IMG/VR virus record: IMGVR_UViG_3300009506_000205
Span: 1 to 21,524 of that record
Direction: 5' to 3' (one strand)
DNA from: a virus
Length of the DNA: 21,524 bases
Below the pieces are notes generated by a model, which ran no database searches, was not told the DNA's origin, and worked only from the letters and a program-made list of their open reading frames with translations. How positions within the stretch are numbered: the stretch's first letter is position 1; every line of letters starts with the position of its first letter. Below, piece after piece: positions 8,826-21,524 of the stretch. The position numbers were made by a program, and so were the translations under genes.

Positions 8826-11800
8826 TTAACCGCATAAGTAAATACAGGCAATGGTTTTTGTTTTCTTTGGTTCCTGGGTCCAATCTACAGCTTCTCTGGC
8901 CTTGGCTACCGTGTAATTATGAGTGAGGTCGTCATCCTGCTTCATGCCTTTACCCGGTGTATTTGATGTACAGATATAATCACCGATCTCAATATTGCCG
9001 CCTTCATCACAGACATTGATCTGCCCTTCGCCGACCGCATTAAAAGTAATTAGCGAATATTGATTTCGCATGTTCTCATACAAAATAACATCCTCATCCG
9101 TTAATCCTTTTGGTTTATTGAAGACTGCAACCTTACACTGTTTGATTTTTTTCTTGGGTCTAGGTTTCGCATCGTCCTTAAGTTTCTTATAGGCCTCGTA
9201 TTCATCATCATCCATCTTTACGGTCAGAGCAGGCAAGTCTGTTATACTGGTGTATACACCAATTACGCCTTTCTGCTGAGCCGTCGTTGTGATAGCATGG
9301 CTACAAATACAATTAGATAGGTTCTTTTTAACTACAATATCAACATCAACAAGAATATCGCCGAACTCAGCATTGAAGTTTTTTGGAGCCAGTCCTTCAT
9401 GGGTACCTGTAAACGGCAAGTAGTTCGATCCATTGCCTGAGGAATAAAAATCATAACCTGATGTAGATTGACTGTTACCTTCGACTCCGATTCCAGTACC
9501 AGTGCTAGAAGACGAATATCCGAGTATCCCTACCCCACTTGAGGTACGTGCCGTGACGGCAGTATTGGCACCACCACACTCCAACCACGCACAGTCATGG
9601 GCAACGGCCAAAGAAAAATTGCAGTATTGGCTGTACGAGTAAGCGTGATAGGCCAATCTAGTATTTGTGGAATCTGATGTTCCACTTTTAAATGTCACAT
9701 AGCTACCGCCTACACTGTTTATTCCGATAGCAGCCATCTGTCGTATGGTTGAACCATCACTGCCCCAAAAGTACATTTGATTATCAGTTTTGGACAGATG
9801 CACACCCTGTTGGGAAGAGCCAACACTTGGGTGAGTTTTCAGATCACCAGAGACAATAAGAGTAGAACCATTCCATTGGAGATAATTTCCAGAAGACCCT
9901 AGACAGAGGTTCCCAGTGTCTGCAATATAAATACCGGTATTGGTGGTATCTGTAGCTGAAGTCTTACTGCCACCTTTTATGGCTCCTTTAAAAGTGAGGG
10001 CCGCTCCGTCCCAAGTTAAAAAATTGCTCCCATCACCAATTCCAAGACAGTACGCGTCAGGTGTTGGAGTTGTATCCCATCCGAGAAAGAAACCTGCTGT
10101 TGAGCTATTATAGGCCGTTTTACCGTCAGAATGAATTTGACAGCCGCTACCTACAGTAATTCCACCGCCTGATAGAGTTACACCTGTTGTTAATTTGGCA
10201 GTTGTGTTATCTGCATCCGGGTCGCCAGTGAATCCAAGGTTAGCTAAGTCATGGACCTCTTCGAGAGTAACATGGTCAATTTCAAACTGGCCAGCCTGAC
10301 CGTTATAATTAACAATTAGAATAGGCCGAACGTATTTGGTACCACTATACATTTTACCGGGACTTAAGGGGTCATAGTGGATACCATTAATTTCTGAGGT
10401 ACCGTCAGCACCCTTAATATATCCTGAAACTTCTGCCCAGGATGATGTGGGAGCTCCAAGACGTATACAGTACATATGCTGGCTAACACCATTAGTATTA
10501 GACCCATCAATATCAATCCAGGTGTCGTCCGCAGCGTTACGTCCACCGAGCCCAACAGAAATTGTACCGGACCCTGATATTCTACGGAATCTGGCGGTCA
10601 GTCGGTACAATTTATTTGGGTCAAGCGGAATACTCTCTTTCCAGATCAAGTGACGTTGGTCATTGCCAGAGTTATTACCGACCCGCAGATATTTACCACC
10701 AGCTTCACCGCCTGACTGGAAGGATACTTCACCGCTCCCACTTACACTGTCCCAGTTAGCCAATAATTCGGATTCAGCACTGTACTCAAAAGTTTCACGG
10801 AGATTGGTAATGATGGGACGATTATTAATATCCGTTCCCCAGGTTGCTCCTTTGGTGGCTTCATTTTCGATACTGGTAATATCTGTTCCGGCAATACTAG
10901 AGCCAGATGAAATACTCAGCTTAGACCCGTCCCAGGTCATGCCTCCGGCAGTAGGTGATCCAATACCTAGAGCATACTTATTGATATTGGTATCCCAGCC
11001 CATGAAAAATCCATTTACATCAGTATTGTAATGGGTCTTGTCTCTGGTGAATATGGCTCCACCATCAGTACCGCCAGGGTAGCCCATTACAATGTAAGAG
11101 CCAGTACCTTTCAGATACAGGCCATTAGCATCAAAAGCTAAGGTGGCACCACCCTGTAATTGTGACCAACCCTGCTGAGCATTATCCACACCGGCCGGCA
11201 CGGTTCCTGCCAGTTCACTCCACTCTGTGTAGTAGGCCAGATCATTTATACACGCAGCTAGAGCATCATTATAGGCCTCATACAAATCAGAGAGATCACC
11301 TCGACCTACAGAGAAATCTGTAGTGGTGAGATTGGTATTCGGTGTGTCATTGATATCGGTAAATACTAAATGCGGAGATTGGTATAAGAACTCATGCAGT
11401 GCGGTATACGCTGTATTTAAAGTGGTATACCGGGTGGAATAAGGAGAGATGGTATGTAAACTTTTAGCTTCTAACGCAGCTTTAACTTTCAGATACGTTG
11501 TATTTATTCCTGGCCAGCGAACTTGCCAAAGCAGTTTCTCATTTACAGAAAATTTACCGTCAGCTTCCATGACGTTGCCCATGATAGATTCCCAGGACGG
11601 ATTCTGGGGAACACCGCCAGGATACATGAACAGGCCCTGCCGTTCCTTGGCCGTCAGTTTACCTCGATAGATTGCCAACTGATCTGCATAACCAGTAAGG
11701 CCAGCAGCCATTGTAAAGTCAGCAACACTGCTAGCAAAACCCGTAGCAAAGTAAGTTGACAAATCAGGGACAACACTACTTTGTACATTATCCCGCCATA

Positions 11801-13646
11801 CCTTTAAGTCTCCAGCACAATCAAATTCAAATACCCAGAAATGCCAGTCCATGTCATTATCATCACCGAGAACCAGATCAGTAAAACTATAGCTCTGATT
11901 AGCAACGCCATCACCGACTTCGACTATTGGATATTCATAGACTAAAGGACGATAATAACAACGAAACCCAGCAAGTCCAGTGGCATCCCATTTAGTAAAT
12001 AGTGTACGTACACCATTGCCGTGGGCATGTTGGTGCCATAAACAAACCGTAAAAGCAGGGCAATTAGTGGCGTCACCAAGCTCGTCTAAGGGAGACCCGT
12101 TACCAAAAACAGCTGATACACTCCCGCCTTGAAAACAGGAATTACCTGTCATGCCAAAGGCAGCCCAGGACTCAGCTGAAAGGTCTGCATCATTATTATT
12201 GGCTGTGGCATCATGCACAATCAGACCAGAACCCTCATCAAACGTAGCCTGAAACATGAGTTTTTCAGCCGAGGGTAACTGAGCCTGAATATGGTTGGCT
12301 ATAACTATCTCATCCGTCTCTGAATTATATAGAAATGGGTTGGCCGACCCACTGGGCGTGTAGAATTCAAACGCATCAGCGTAGATCCGGAAGGCAGTTT
12401 TATACCCGGTAAAGGTTGAGTCTTCCCAATAGGTATGGGTGGTATCACTGGCCGGATGATTGCCAGAAGCAGCAATATGACTCAATTTACATTTGGATAT
12501 CTTGGGAGTGCCATTATCGATCCAGTAAACATAATCAACAAGATATGGTGAAGCCGTACCATCATAGTAGTTTTTACCGTTTTCCCAATCAGGGTAAAGT
12601 ACAAGTTCAATGCCTGTCGCATAAGGCGTGCCGGCTGGGTCTTCAGTTACCGAAACACTCCACCGATCCGCCGTCATAGTCTCCAGAGCTATAAGACGGA
12701 GATCATCAGACCCTACCGCAGACTCGGTGGCCTGGAGGCGAATCCCATGAGCACTGATATCAAGTGCAGCTTGGTTGGCTACACCTGTGGTCGTGTTTAA
12801 CTGGTTTACGTATAAGCTTATCTCACCAGCGTTGACACTGATATCAGCAAAGGCTTTGACGATTGACTTTGTCCCGGGTGCCGCGGGATCATCTAGTTCA
12901 GTAAGACGTGTGGCATGAAGACCAACAGTGGTTGCAGTCTGGTTTATCTGAGTAGAGTGGGAGTCGACTCGACCATCGACATAAGCAATATCTTCGGCCA
13001 CATCAAACGTAATACGATCTGACTCCTGAAGGATCCTCGACCAGTTTCGCTCTACTAATCCATAAACCGGATCATCCATCACCGTAACCCGTGCCACCAG
13101 GGAGTTGATGTCTTTGACTGTCTGGGAGATCTGGGACCAGGCGGTGACAAGAGTATCCCCAGTATAGTCGCCCCCTCCGTCGATCTTGGTAACTCGGGCG
13201 TAGAGTGAAGTGAACTGAGACTCTGTCCAGCCGTGGATATTCCCTTCAAGGGTACCTAGATCATCCAATAAAGCTAGATTATCCAAACCTAGTGATCGAT
13301 TGATCAGTGTACTGAGGTCATTCAGATCTGCAGTTAACAAGGAGTCGAGCCAGCCAGAATCTATCTGGCCCTGCAAGAGGGTCTGTAGTTCGCCCATTGT
13401 GTAGAAGCCACCATAGCCTGTTCCGGCCGGTGGAGCTTCACTGACGAGGACCTGATACCGCCCAGGTACCTCGACAACTGTATTCTGGTTCGCCTGGAGT
13501 TCAATAGTAGCAGAGGCGTCCAGTACTTCTACTGTAACGTCGTCAACTACTTCAACTGTGGATGTGTATGGAGTGACTTCTACGGTCTGTCCACCGTCAT
13601 CGACTTCGACAGAGTAGACCTTAGACTCGTCAATTACTGTGGACAT
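8826..13646 (-). CDS. Large tail fibre / appendage protein with LamG-like and carbohydrate-binding-like domains (1606 aa)
   Basis: At 1606 residues this is the largest protein in the window and probably the host-binding appendage. Residues 1-75 are a beta-rich, acidic anchor. Residues about 80-330 are helical, fibre-like segments (VDSHSTQINQTATTVGLHAT). At about 410-455 there is a FRIYADAFEFYTPSG-NPFLYNSETDEI stretch like central tail proteins of the lambda J type. About 463-675 is a concanavalin/LamG-like jelly roll. About 950-1130 resembles a CBM-like sandwich. GFF[ML]GWDT repeats lie near 882 and 1187. The last ~190 residues (from FTGTHEGL, with INVCDEGGNIEIGDYICTSN and TVAKAREAVDW, ending IACIYLCG) match, from memory, a conserved C-terminal module of phage fibres that may aid trimer folding or self-process. 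It starts 3 bases after the 134-aa gene, with only a weak ribosome site. Confidence 0.85.
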   Translation of the reverse strand: MSTVIDESKVYSVEVDDGGQTVEVTPYTSTVEVVDDVTVEVLDASATIELQANQNTVVEVPGRYQVLVSEAPPAGTGYGGFYTMGELQTLLQGQIDSGWLDSLLTADLNDLSTLINRSLGLDNLALLDDLGTLEGNIHGWTESQFTSLYARVTKIDGGGDYTGDTLVTAWSQISQTVKDINSLVARVTVMDDPVYGLVERNWSRILQESDRITFDVAEDIAYVDGRVDSHSTQINQTATTVGLHATRLTELDDPAAPGTKSIVKAFADISVNAGEISLYVNQLNTTTGVANQAALDISAHGIRLQATESAVGSDDLRLIALETMTADRWSVSVTEDPAGTPYATGIELVLYPDWENGKNYYDGTASPYLVDYVYWIDNGTPKISKCKLSHIAASGNHPASDTTHTYWEDSTFTGYKTAFRIYADAFEFYTPSGSANPFLYNSETDEIVIANHIQAQLPSAEKLMFQATFDEGSGLIVHDATANNNDADLSAESWAAFGMTGNSCFQGGSVSAVFGNGSPLDELGDATNCPAFTVCLWHQHAHGNGVRTLFTKWDATGLAGFRCYYRPLVYEYPIVEVGDGVANQSYSFTDLVLGDDNDMDWHFWVFEFDCAGDLKVWRDNVQSSVVPDLSTYFATGFASSVADFTMAAGLTGYADQLAIYRGKLTAKERQGLFMYPGGVPQNPSWESIMGNVMEADGKFSVNEKLLWQVRWPGINTTYLKVKAALEAKSLHTISPYSTRYTTLNTAYTALHEFLYQSPHLVFTDINDTPNTNLTTTDFSVGRGDLSDLYEAYNDALAACINDLAYYTEWSELAGTVPAGVDNAQQGWSQLQGGATLAFDANGLYLKGTGSYIVMGYPGGTDGGAIFTRDKTHYNTDVNGFFMGWDTNINKYALGIGSPTAGGMTWDGSKLSISSGSSIAGTDITSIENEATKGATWGTDINNRPIITNLRETFEYSAESELLANWDSVSGSGEVSFQSGGEAGGKYLRVGNNSGNDQRHLIWKESIPLDPNKLYRLTARFRRISGSGTISVGLGGRNAADDTWIDIDGSNTNGVSQHMYCIRLGAPTSSWAEVSGYIKGADGTSEINGIHYDPLSPGKMYSGTKYVRPILIVNYNGQAGQFEIDHVTLEEVHDLANLGFTGDPDADNTTAKLTTGVTLSGGGITVGSGCQIHSDGKTAYNSSTAGFFLGWDTTPTPDAYCLGIGDGSNFLTWDGAALTFKGAIKGGSKTSATDTTNTGIYIADTGNLCLGSSGNYLQWNGSTLIVSGDLKTHPSVGSSQQGVHLSKTDNQMYFWGSDGSTIRQMAAIGINSVGGSYVTFKSGTSDSTNTRLAYHAYSYSQYCNFSLAVAHDCAWLECGGANTAVTARTSSGVGILGYSSSSTGTGIGVEGNSQSTSGYDFYSSGNGSNYLPFTGTHEGLAPKNFNAEFGDILVDVDIVVKKNLSNCICSHAITTTAQQKGVIGVYTSITDLPALTVKMDDDEYEAYKKLKDDAKPRPKKKIKQCKVAVFNKPKGLTDEDVILYENMRNQYSLITFNAVGEGQINVCDEGGNIEIGDYICTSNTPGKGMKQDDDLTHNYTVAKAREAVDWTQEPKKTKTIACIYLCG

Positions 13647-19491: not shown

Positions 19492-19544
19492 TAGCTTGTT
19501 TCCCCCCACCTTACTATAAGAATTATTAACACGTTCATGGAGCC

Positions 19545-19573
19545 AAGATAAAAGTTTTGTATCATATTGTCAA
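19545..19573 (-). promoter_or_regulatory. Consensus sigma70-type promoter for the leftward operon
   Basis: On the minus strand a perfect TTGACA (19573-19568) is followed by exactly 17 bases and TATCTT (19550-19545, 4/6 of the -10). The transcript would start near 19538 and run into the 70-aa gene. A CGTATTT/AAATACG inverted repeat (19574-19580 and 19597-19603) lies just upstream of the -35 and could be a regulator site. Confidence 0.7.
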
Positions 19574-19685
19574 CGTATTTTAAAAAAGTTTGTAGTAAAT
19601 ACGCAAGTTTTATATTTGTAAGTTATTGTAATTACTATATAAAATACAAATCAATATGACAGATATATCTATAGATACTTAGTTG
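19557..19685. other. AT-rich segment in the divergent control region
   Basis: About 130 bases of very AT-rich DNA with short inverted repeats (ATTTGTA/TACAAAT, TTTTATA/TATAAAA) lie upstream of the leftward promoter. Such DNA melts easily and could be part of a replication origin, an UP-element-like promoter flank, or an end region. No gene is supported here. Confidence 0.45.
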
Positions 19686-19686
19686 A

Positions 19687-19710
19687 CAAGCCGGGCTCCG
19701 CCCGGCCTTG
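19687..19710 (+). promoter_or_regulatory. Hairpin with TCC triloop (GGA on minus strand)
   Basis: GCCGGGC (19690-19696) pairs perfectly with GCCCGGC (19700-19706) around the loop TCC. CAA/TTG extends the stem past one bulged C. On the minus strand the loop is GGA closed by a C-G pair. No T-tract follows, so it is not a typical terminator. See the finding on triloop hairpins. Confidence 0.5.
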
Positions 19711-19752
19711 TGGAGGAAAAATAATAGTAGGGACTATATACAGGGCCCCGCG

Positions 19753-19787
19753 GCTTTAACAGACTGATCCAGGTTAAAGCTAGTCTG
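19753..19787. other. Interleaved inverted repeats (possible pseudoknot)
   Basis: GCTTTAAC (19753-19760) is complementary to GTTAAAGC (19773-19780), and CAGACT (19760-19765) is complementary to AGTCTG (19782-19787). The order A-B-A'-B' allows an H-type pseudoknot or two mutually exclusive hairpins. Confidence 0.45.
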
Positions 19788-19805
19788 CCTCTGATAGTCG
19801 ACTCT

Positions 19806-19821
19806 CTTACTCCCAGTAGGG
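19806..19821 (+). repeat. 16-bp hairpin motif, copy 1
   Basis: CTTACTCCCAGTAGGG is repeated with one change (CTTACTGCCAGTAGGG) at 20117-20132. Each copy is a small hairpin: TACT and AGTA arms around CCC or GCC, extended by a G-T and a G-C pair. Confidence 0.6.
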
Positions 19822-19902
19822 ATTCTGAATTAAAGGCTATAACTATCTCGCATTGCAGTTGCAACGATCATCATGGCAACGGCAACGCGATCAAGGTGCC
19901 GA

Positions 19903-19985
19903 ATAATATTTTCTGAGGACTGCGGATAGCGGCGAGCTGCCCAAGCAGCTCGCAAGCTGTCTGTCAGGACGAACGAAAATATTAT
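19903..19985. ncRNA. Long three-segment hairpin (83 nt), candidate structured RNA or DNA element
   Basis: Outer stem: 11 perfect bp, ATAATATTTTC (19903-19913) with GAAAATATTAT (19975-19985). Middle stem: GATAGC (19925-19930) with GCTGTC (19956-19961), one T-G pair. Inner stem: 9 perfect bp, GCGAGCTGC (19932-19940) with GCAGCTCGC (19945-19953), loop CCAA. CTGA/TCAG can pair in the interior loop. There is no coding frame or T-tract. It may be a structured leader RNA, a replication or packaging element, or a hairpin near a genome end. The strand cannot be decided. Confidence 0.5.
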
Positions 19986-20020
19986 GAGGCTATACGAATG
20001 AACCAATAAATATAAGGTGC

Positions 20021-20034
20021 TACCCAGCCTGGGT
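20021..20034 (+). repeat. 14-bp palindrome, copy 1 (GCC triloop)
   Basis: TACCCAGCCTGGGT contains ACCCA and TGGGT arms around GCC. An identical copy lies at 20065-20078. The pair may be an operator for a dimeric regulator, or two hairpin promoters. Confidence 0.65.
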
Positions 20035-20064
20035 TAAGTACCCGTCATCATAAGATAATCGACT

Positions 20065-20078
20065 TACCCAGCCTGGGT
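20065..20078 (+). repeat. 14-bp palindrome, copy 2 (GCC triloop)
   Basis: Identical to 20021-20034 and shifted by 44 bp, about four helical turns. The flanks TAAGT and ACTTA between the copies are complementary, so the two sites can also pair with each other (20029-20039 with 20062-20071). Confidence 0.65.
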
Positions 20079-20112
20079 CTGCTGAGAATCGCTGTAGAGT
20101 ATAATGAACTTG

Positions 20113-20163
20113 TACCCTTACTGCCAGTAGGGTTATGCTGAGGAGGGCTCCTCGCATAGGGTA
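20113..20163 (+). promoter_or_regulatory. 51-nt branched structural element
   Basis: TACCCT (20113-20118) can pair with AGGGTA (20158-20163) and enclose two hairpins: TACT-GCC-AGTA (20119-20129) and TATGC-T-GAGGAG-GG-CTCCTC-GCATA (20134-20158, 11 bp with one bulge, sharing one base with the outer arm). A competing pair is ACCCT (20114-20118) with AGGGT (20129-20133). The element could be an RNA switch or a DNA recognition structure. It contains copy 2 of the 16-bp hairpin motif. Confidence 0.45.
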
Positions 20164-20244
20164 AAATAGCTCACAGACTTACGAGTGTAGTTCTGGATCG
20201 TAGATCCCTAATACTCAAACCTACCCCCCTAGTCCTTAGAAAAA

Positions 20245-20273
20245 TTGCCCTTCAATTTTTTGACCTCTATTTT
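20245..20273 (+). promoter_or_regulatory. Possible weak sigma70-type promoter for the rightward genes
   Basis: TTGCCC (4/6) and TATTTT (4/6) are separated by exactly 17 bases, placing a start near 20280, about 75 bases before the first plus-strand gene. The -35 overlaps an AAAAATTG/CAATTTTT hairpin (20240-20260). The match is modest and could be chance in AT-rich DNA. Confidence 0.3.
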
Positions 20274-20284
20274 TATGACACACA

Positions 20285-20356
20285 TGGGCTACTGCCCACA
20301 GTGACGGATTGCATGTGGCAATCTACAACTTATGTCCCTTGCAAGGAGGACTACCT
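20285..20356 (+). promoter_or_regulatory. Structured leader and ribosome site of the first rightward gene
   Basis: Two hairpins, TGGGC-TACT-GCCCA (20285-20298) and GATTGC-ATGTG-GCAATC (20307-20323), precede a strong AGGAGG ribosome site 6-7 bases before the ATG at 20357. The ribosome site itself sits beside the palindrome CCTTGCAAGG and could be partly masked by GTCC/GGAC pairing. Confidence 0.45.
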
Positions 20357-20617
20357 ATGTCTAACAAGACTAAAGCACAATTGGAACAGGAGCTGGCCAA
20401 TGAGAAGGCCCAGCGTAACAGTAACCTCAACCCCTTTGACGCAGTGAGGAATGTGTTCGATACTGCAGTCATTACCACACGCATGGTGAAGAACGCTGTC
20501 ATCCGTGCTGAAACTGTTGTGGACATCGTGTCCAATGGTGTAGAAGCCAGTGCTACGTGGTTCGAGACTAAAGTCCGTAACGAAATCGTAGCTCTCGGTA
20601 ATCCTACCGAACTCTAA
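20357..20617 (+). CDS. Small early protein of unknown function (86 aa)
   Basis: The start is ATG 20357 because of the strong AGGAGG site just upstream; the frame is open for another 16 codons upstream but without any ribosome site. The 86-residue product starts MSNKTKAQLEQELANEKAQR and continues with a helical, Val/Ala-rich middle (FDTAVITTRMVKNAVIRAET, then VVDIVSNGVEASATWFETKV). It has no cysteine, no clear membrane segment and no motif I recognise. A Rho-independent terminator follows 17 bases after its stop. As the first rightward gene after the control region it is probably an early, host-directed protein; this is inferred from position. Confidence 0.75.
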   Translation: MSNKTKAQLEQELANEKAQRNSNLNPFDAVRNVFDTAVITTRMVKNAVIRAETVVDIVSNGVEASATWFETKVRNEIVALGNPTEL

Positions 20618-20633
20618 ACCTAGACTATAGGTT

Positions 20634-20710
20634 GCTATGGAGCAGGTGAAATGCTGGGGTGTACGGTCATACGACCTGCCAGCTAGCTTGCTCTATAGCT
20701 CTTTTTTATT
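20634..20710 (+). terminator. Branched Rho-independent terminator after the first rightward gene
   Basis: An 11-bp stem, GCTATGGAGCA (20634-20644) with TGCTCTATAGC (20689-20699) including one G-T pair, encloses inner hairpins (GCTGG/CCAGC and GGTC-ATAC-GACC) and is followed by TCTTTTTTATT. GCAGGT (20642-20647) can instead pair with ACCTGC (20674-20679), so an alternative fold exists. Confidence 0.68.
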
Positions 20711-20788: not shown

Positions 20789-20841
20789 GGTATTGGTAAT
20801 TATCCCTTTCATCCATTAACCCATTACAGGAGATATAAATT

Positions 20842-21147
20842 ATGTCTAAGTCACTTCATACCGTTACACTTACAGGCCGTCTGGCCGATACCTCTGTTGC
20901 CAAGACACAGCAGGCTAAAGATGTGAAATACTTCTCATCTGCCAATGGTCTGGTCAAAGTAGTCCGCATGAAAAACATTGCCAAGGCGAGTAAAGAACGC
21001 ATTCGTCTACATACCAAGAAGAGTATTTACACGCTGTATAAGCACAGCAATCAGAACTACTATGCGGGTACTACACCGACTGGTATTAAGCTTCAGGTTA
21101 CGCTTAAGAAAATCGTTGGCGAGCTCAGATACTGGGCTGAAATCTAA
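20842..21147 (+). CDS. Small basic early protein of unknown function (101 aa)
   Basis: ATG 20842 has an AGGAGA ribosome site 8 bases upstream. The 101-residue product starts MSKSLHTVTLTGRLADTSVA and is clearly basic, with many Lys and Arg (VVRMKNIAKASKERIRLHTK, then KSIYTLYKHSN) and a C-terminal YWAEI. Alternating beta-type and helical segments suggest a small single-domain protein; the charge suggests nucleic-acid binding, but no known motif is seen. It lies about 130 bases after the terminator of the previous gene, so it may have its own promoter in the spacer. A 9-bp inverted repeat follows the gene. Confidence 0.75.
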   Translation: MSKSLHTVTLTGRLADTSVAKTQQAKDVKYFSSANGLVKVVRMKNIAKASKERIRLHTKKSIYTLYKHSNQNYYAGTTPTGIKLQVTLKKIVGELRYWAEI

Positions 21148-21155
21148 TCATCGTA

Positions 21156-21216
21156 GCTGTGCTGGCTTCAATGCTCTGTTCAGGTTGTACCTGATTACCG
21201 GAGAGGTCAGCACAGC
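21156..21216 (+). promoter_or_regulatory. Structured spacer between second and third rightward genes
   Basis: GCTGTGCTG (21156-21164) is perfectly complementary to CAGCACAGC (21208-21216). Inside lies TCAGGT-TGT-ACCTGA (21180-21194), a 6-bp hairpin with a triloop. No T-tract follows, so it is a leader or processing structure and not a terminator. Confidence 0.45.
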
Positions 21217-21242: not shown

Positions 21243-21524
21243 ATGGGCGTAAGACTTTACTTGAATACTAATGATGTAGCTGTACTGGAAGAGTGTGCTG
21301 GTGTACCTGCTGGTACTAATGACAGACTGCAGGCTCTCAAAAAGAGCTTTGTACCTAAAACTGCTGACGCTGGCTATGAGTTGTACTGTGCTGTACAGGC
21401 TGATGCTGAACTGGCTATTTGGGAGCATTTTCAGCTTTTTGGCTTTGGCAAGTTCGATAACTCCAAATGCGTTAGATTTGACCTTGATCCTTATGTGGGT
21501 GAAGCTAAGGATATGGACGCACTC
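21243..21524 (+). CDS. Early protein of unknown function, C-terminus beyond window (94 codons seen)
   Basis: ATG 21243 has an AGGAGA ribosome site about 8 bases upstream, like the two genes before it. The frame is open to the right edge. The visible part starts MGVRLYLNTNDVAVLEECAG, continues with LQALKKSFVPKTADAGYELY and an aromatic stretch (IWEHFQLFGFGKFDNSKCV), then FDLDPYVGEAKDMDAL. It appears soluble and slightly acidic. I do not recognise the family. The opposite strand shows only a short shadow frame. Confidence 0.72.
   Translation, partial: MGVRLYLNTNDVAVLEECAGVPAGTNDRLQALKKSFVPKTADAGYELYCAVQADAELAIWEHFQLFGFGKFDNSKCVRFDLDPYVGEAKDMDAL

Follow-up and report, generated by a model that had tools for sequence, protein, structure and literature searches.

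Hairpin promoters are a rare use of DNA secondary structure as a promoter, and they have been studied mainly in phage N4. Beyond N4, where they are known, such promoters have been predicted with 3-nt loops in phages LUZ7 and LIT1 and in Pectobacterium phage CB1. The N4 promoter needs a C:G loop-closing pair, G and A as the outer bases of the loop, a purine at its centre, and a G at position -8 of the stem (PMC4496689); the start in the N4 sequence is GG. For the roseophages included in one comparative study, no promoter consensus was found (PMC4193335). Neither 4-nt loops nor a terminal module anchored by a C-run were described in the literature that we consulted, our coverage of which was incomplete.

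Here we analyzed a stretch of 21,524 bases (the window), which is the entire public contig IMGVR_UViG_3300009506_000205 and for which five hairpins with 3-nt NCC loops had been put forward as virion RNA polymerase (vRNAP) promoters of rightward early genes. We consider it likely that the window contains the junction at which the end of the genome meets its start, that two hairpins with TACT loops beside the early genes (P1 and P2) are vRNAP promoters, and that four of the five hairpins originally flagged are not.

Phage family and gene order

The contig belongs to the Schitoviridae (N4-like phages). Its terminase, portal, major capsid, tape-measure-like and further virion proteins match N4-like families, the terminase being 60-65% identical to those of N4-like phages of Pectobacterium, Kosakonia, Klebsiella, Pseudomonas and Vibrio, and its gene order follows N4 from gp53 to gp69. 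The capsid and portal had been described beforehand as N4-like, an assignment that is sound in light of the virion-protein matches, the terminase identity, the N4 gene order, and the presence, in seven of ten sampled relatives, of a vRNAP-like open frame (3354-3696 aa) that matches the N4 polymerase domain. Because the gene order is that of N4 gp53-gp69 and the contig stops inside the gp53 homologue, it ends three genes short of the gp50 vRNAP. The search of IMG/VR returned no close kin of the phage, the best terminase there being about 66% identical, and none of early gene 2.

The late genes, which extend to 19509, are oriented leftward, and the early genes, which begin at 20357, are oriented rightward, as had been predicted for the latter, so the contig spans the junction of two genome ends. 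Early gene 1 (20357-20617, plus strand) encodes 86 aa of no known family, and early gene 2 (20842-21147, plus strand) encodes 101 aa. On the late side, a good sigma-70 type match (TTGACA-17-TATCTT) occupies 19545-19573 of the minus strand and reads leftward into the late genes. A 1606-aa tail protein (8826-13646, minus strand), the middle part of which matches tail-fibre and baseplate-spike families, sits between the gp59 (portal) and gp67 homologues, in the place of N4 gp60-gp66.

A conserved module at the probable left genome end

Positions 20152-20195 form a pre-terminal motif whose homologue in LUZ7 is the 44-bp stretch that stops just short of the sequenced start of the terminal repeat. 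Identity between 20152-20194 and the corresponding block in LUZ7 and its kin is 82-85%; in LUZ7 this block ends at 74240 and the right terminal repeat starts at 74242. According to a remark in the LUZ7 record, direct sequencing broke off at the ends of the repeat, and the LIT1 record carries an identical remark. More than 20 other N4-like contigs were aligned, with LUZ7 and LIT1 as the two relatives whose physical ends have been sequenced. The aligned contigs share an order of pre-terminal motif (typically GGGTACGAGTGCAGTACT), about 30 nt, a C-run, and then the leader of the first early gene, and in LIT1 the same GCAGTACT precedes the terminal repeat. The C-run, defined as six or more C, comprises 6-11 C in nearly all genomes aligned, and its distance from the left end is about 30 nt in N4, G7C, LUZ7, LIT1 and CB1.

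From these alignments we infer that the left physical end of the genome lies at about 20196, with 20196-20229 extending from the putative start of the terminal repeat to the end of the conserved C-run (20224-20229). The pre-terminal motif, the C-run and the position of P1 described below all agree with the sequenced ends of LUZ7 and LIT1. Possibly the module serves as a terminase cutting or packaging signal.

Early promoter grammar in N4-like relatives

As a positive control, our hairpin scan recovered P1, P2 and P3 of N4. The grammar that we applied to relatives calls for a stem of 4 bp or more that is closed by C:G and a GG 9-12 nt past the loop, all within the first 140 nt after the C-run. 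A fitting hairpin followed the C-run in 21 of 26 genomes, compared with 0.61 in shuffles, and the other five showed no P1 under this grammar in the first 140 nt past the C-run. In the relatives, P1 lies about 50-60 nt from the gene's ATG.

Loop sequences before the relatives' early genes vary, reading TTC, TCC, TAC, ATA and the 4-nt TACC and TTCC on the plus strand. The template loops computed after the C-run were GAA, GGA, GTA, GCA, GGTA, GGCA, GACA, GAAT, GAAG, GCAA and TAT, with AGTA in the window; where a P1 was found, the template loop of the first hairpin was mostly G..A, with 3 or 4 nt. Hairpins with plus-strand loops TCC, TAC, TTC, TACC, ATA, TTCC or TACT passed on the early strand, and not once on the opposite one. 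By comparison, grammar hairpins in the 700 nt before the genome end were near chance level (7 versus 4.8 expected), and among these a promoter-type loop occurred only in the window's. We excluded hairpins with 4-nt TTCG-type loops, as well as the TACG loops of one relative (L025), as being either probable terminators or unproven. In CB1, six C[ATA]G hairpins stand before early genes, at 88, 868, 1783, 2097, 6387 and 6751; the record annotates promoters at three of these sites, and the true number may therefore be twice that.

Candidate early promoters P1 and P2

The hairpin that we propose as P1 (20285-20298, minus strand as template) reads TGGGC[TACT]GCCCA, with the loop in brackets, and the proposed P2 (20773-20788, minus strand as template) reads ATGCCC[TACT]GGGCAT. 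Both have stems within 5-7 bp, present the template loop AGTA closed by C:G, and are followed by GG exactly 12 nt past the loop (20306-20307 and 20795-20796). The start codons of gene 1 (20357) and gene 2 (20842), respectively, follow them at a distance of about 60 nt, as in N4, LUZ7 and CB1. P1 is about 95 nt from the probable left end, and the corresponding distance is 95 nt for N4 P1, 94 for G7C, 88 for CB1 and 85 for LUZ7.

The search in which both hairpins first came up did not specify their shared TACT loop. The three early intergenic stretches held two grammar matches versus 0.0014 expected, a count reached in none of 5000 shuffles, with the exact odds being flattering because the loop list was compiled after inspecting the relatives and the window's own hairpins. 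Across the whole window, the grammar matches number three, all of them on the plus strand. These two hairpins depart from the N4 pattern in the length of the loop, 4 nt rather than 3. The G at -8 of the stem is present in P1 and absent from P2, which has C at template position -8, as does CB1 P1. No other genome examined had a TACT loop at P1.

From their sequence and position, we infer that the TACT hairpins are the early promoters used by the virion polymerase. After injection, this enzyme would recognise P1 and P2, extruded as hairpins from the minus (template) strand of the DNA, by means of their C:G-closed AGTA loop, and RNA would probably start at the GG 12 nt further on (20306 and 20795), running rightward into genes 1 and 2. 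The original prediction was thus right to expect hairpin promoters for rightward genes in this window and wrong in its choice of hairpins, the two that adjoin the genes having been left off its list.

Farther into the early region, a large hairpin (20634-20699) followed by six T (the whole spanning 20634-20707) lies right after early gene 1 and is a probable terminator, which suggests that the two genes are transcribed separately. A weak candidate for a third promoter, P3 (21180-21194, minus strand as template), reads TCAGGT[TGT]ACCTGA and has GG 11 nt past the loop before an ATG at 21243; its closing pair is T:A and it is part of a larger stem. This long stem, GCTGTGCTG/CAGCACAGC, lies in the leader of gene 3 and encloses the hairpin (21154-21215), with a fold z-score of -3.7.

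The five flagged hairpins

All five NCC triloops exist where they had been reported. The first (19690-19706, minus strand as template; loop at 19697) reads GCCGGGC[TCC]GCCCGGC with a 7-bp stem and a template C[GGA]G, and has GG at 19712, 12 nt past the loop, with no ORF after it. The second (19808-19818; loop at 19812) reads TACT[CCC]AGTA, with 4 bp, a T:A closing pair and no GG 9-12 nt past the loop. ACCCA[GCC]TGGGT, with 5 bp, makes up both the third (20022-20034; loop at 20027) and its second copy 44 bp on, the fourth (20066-20078; loop at 20071), and the fifth (20119-20129; loop at 20123) is a 4-bp near-copy of the second, TACT[GCC]AGTA.

Triloops of at least 4 bp with NCC loops are strongly enriched here, with five in 19510-20357 versus a mean of 0.19 in dinucleotide shuffles of that interval, none of 2000 of which reached five. 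The five represent about three independent motifs, since ACCCAGCCTGGGT occurs twice and CTTACT(C/G)CCAGTAGGG occurs twice. The three GCC loops are the centres of odd dyads (ACCCAG-C-CTGGGT for the third and fourth hairpins, TACTG-C-CAGTA for the fifth), so their first and third loop bases are complementary, in contrast to the outer bases G and A of an N4-type template loop. Alternatively, the two copies of ACCCAGCCTGGGT can together form one long hairpin, a pairing that is favored in the minimum-energy RNA fold.

Judged by the rules that held in every relative in which a promoter could be located, four of the five (19812, 20027, 20071 and 20123) break those on the loop, the closing pair and the start site. 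They are closed by A:T or T:A rather than C:G, their template loops are GGC or GGG rather than G-Pu-A, none has a GG start some 10-13 nt past the loop (GG being absent from 9-12 nt), and none lies right of the probable left end and upstream of an early gene; of the sequence features tested, they show only the central purine. The doubts attached to the original prediction, that stems differed and the base at the start was not constant, were justified. Hairpin 19697 is the only one of the five that fits the core rules, with C:G closure, a G-Pu-A template loop, the G at -8 and a GG start (template GC-GGA-GC); it lies in the right-end segment, not before an early gene. Intrinsic terminators were also considered for the flagged hairpins and were ruled out, as no T-run follows them and a terminator scan found none.

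Since all five lie left of 20196, they would be placed at the far right end of the linear virion DNA, where rightward transcription would leave the genome instead of reaching the early genes. This placement speaks against the claim that all five drive those genes.

The folded right-end segment and alternative explanations

The segment that contains the flagged hairpins (19680-20195) folds far better as RNA than its shuffles, with z-scores of -6.4 (plus strand) and -3.7 (minus strand). Its strongest fold is a rod-like hairpin of 93 nt (19898-19990, plus strand), with RNA z-scores of -9.3 (plus) versus -5.1 (minus). Inside the rod, G.A mismatches are stabilising on the plus strand only, and most of the folding difference between the strands of the segment stems from this rod. 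We found no convincing ORF in 19680-20195. Upstream of the rod, at 19752-19788, a GCTTTAAC/GTTAAAGC stem has a loop, CAGACT, that is complementary to AGTCTG just downstream, an arrangement that could give either alternative hairpins or a pseudoknot.

Under our preferred reading, the four GCC and CCC hairpins would be dyads or stems of this folded noncoding segment rather than promoters of genes 1 and 2, most likely as parts of a structured untranslated RNA or as paired protein-binding sites. That they belong to a structured noncoding RNA transcribed from 19680-20195 has a nearly even chance of being right. The plus-strand folding of the segment and above all of its rod, with mismatches that are stable on that strand only, and the lack of a convincing ORF speak for such an RNA. 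On the other side, folding outside the rod is slightly stronger for the minus strand, so that an RNA function is suggested rather than shown. Neither the segment nor the rod matched Rfam at gathering or relaxed thresholds, and a search of the segment's DNA against phages, plasmids and E. coli returned nothing meaningful except the 20152-20194 block. A recurring folded right-end element was sought in the relatives and was not found; the segment is not conserved in them.

A dimeric protein might instead bind the odd dyads, each present in two copies (ACCCAGCCTGGGT and CTTACTSCCAGTAGGG), as double-stranded sites; a repressor, a replication initiator and the packaging machinery would be candidates. 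We regard this as somewhat unlikely. They are direct-repeated palindromes with a single central base, one pair of them 44 bp apart, adjoining the terminus, and outside the rod the excess folding occurs on both strands. However, the tandem ACCCAGCCTGGGT pair occurs in no other IMG/VR contig, and no such sites lie beside the conserved terminus in relatives. An exact-motif scan for CTTACTSCCAGTAGGG returned 11 contigs, below the count expected by chance.

Hairpin 19697 alone may be an additional vRNAP-type promoter that reads into the right-end segment, transcribing the structured noncoding stretch rightward into the right terminal repeat, a proposal that we regard as rather doubtful. Its template carries the exact N4 core (GC-GGA-GC) with GG 12 nt past the loop, and only 0.002 such matches are expected in the segment. 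Yet the right arms of the relatives examined held no comparable hairpin, their matches being at chance level; in addition, its stem is longer than those of N4, no ORF follows, and its loop is unlike that of P1 and P2.

If loop specificity were relaxed or altered, all five hairpins could be vRNAP promoters for the early genes as originally proposed, a reading that now appears very improbable. Clustered central-purine template triloops upstream of rightward genes, enriched as they are, would suit it, and loop specificity does vary in the Schitoviridae (ATA in CB1). Nevertheless, all five lie left of the probable genome end, four combine A:T or T:A closure with GGC or GGG loops that were seen in none of the P1 hairpins found and have no GG at 9-12 nt, and the nearest is more than 200 nt from gene 1, compared with the relatives' P1 at about 50-60 nt from the ATG. 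Equally hard to credit is a misplaced terminus, with the early unit beginning further left and the segment serving as a long early leader. In its favor, the terminal-repeat boundaries were placed by alignment instead of read depth; against it, the three anchors agree with the sequenced LUZ7 and LIT1 ends.

Comparison with known systems

P1 and P2 of the window resemble P1-P3 of N4 in having a template-strand hairpin, a C:G closing pair and a GG start just downstream, and P1 occupies the position of N4 P1, about 95 nt from the left end and before gene 1. They differ in that N4 has 3-nt loops (GAA or GGA) with GG at 9 nt, whereas the window has 4-nt loops (AGTA) with GG at 12 nt, and P2 is unlike N4 in having no G at -8. 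The four flagged GCC and CCC hairpins share only the central purine with N4. With LUZ7 and LIT1, the window has in common the pre-terminal motif, the C-run, and an early hairpin after the C-run; those phages likewise carry C:G-type early hairpins, with 3-nt TAC loops (template GTA) followed 10-11 nt on by GG, compared with loops of 4 nt in the window, and the right end of LUZ7 is a large array of small genes in place of the folded noncoding segment. In CB1, too, C:G-closed hairpins recur before early genes and their loop is not that of N4, although it reads ATA on the plus strand and not TACT.

Counterparts in loop length are three uncultivated relatives from IMG/VR (L052, L055 and L064), which like the window have C:G-closed hairpins with 4-nt plus-strand loops (TACC or TTCC), followed by GG 11 nt past the loop and an ATG 44-62 nt on. 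The last loop base is C in these phages (template GGTA or GGAA) and T in the window (template AGTA). The 4-nt loop is a variant of the 3-nt N4 promoter already described. It is conceivable, but on present evidence unlikely, that the vRNAPs of some Schitoviridae recognise 4-nt template loops with an extra base beside a G-N-A core, and that the phage of the window does so for its early genes while also using a canonical 3-nt right-end hairpin to transcribe a structured noncoding RNA.

With the terminal module (pre-terminal motif, C-run, first hairpin and GG) as an anchor, early promoters can be found in uncultivated N4-like phages, revealing variation of the loop in both sequence and length around the G..A core. 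Such variation offers a direct test of how the polymerase and its loop have evolved together.
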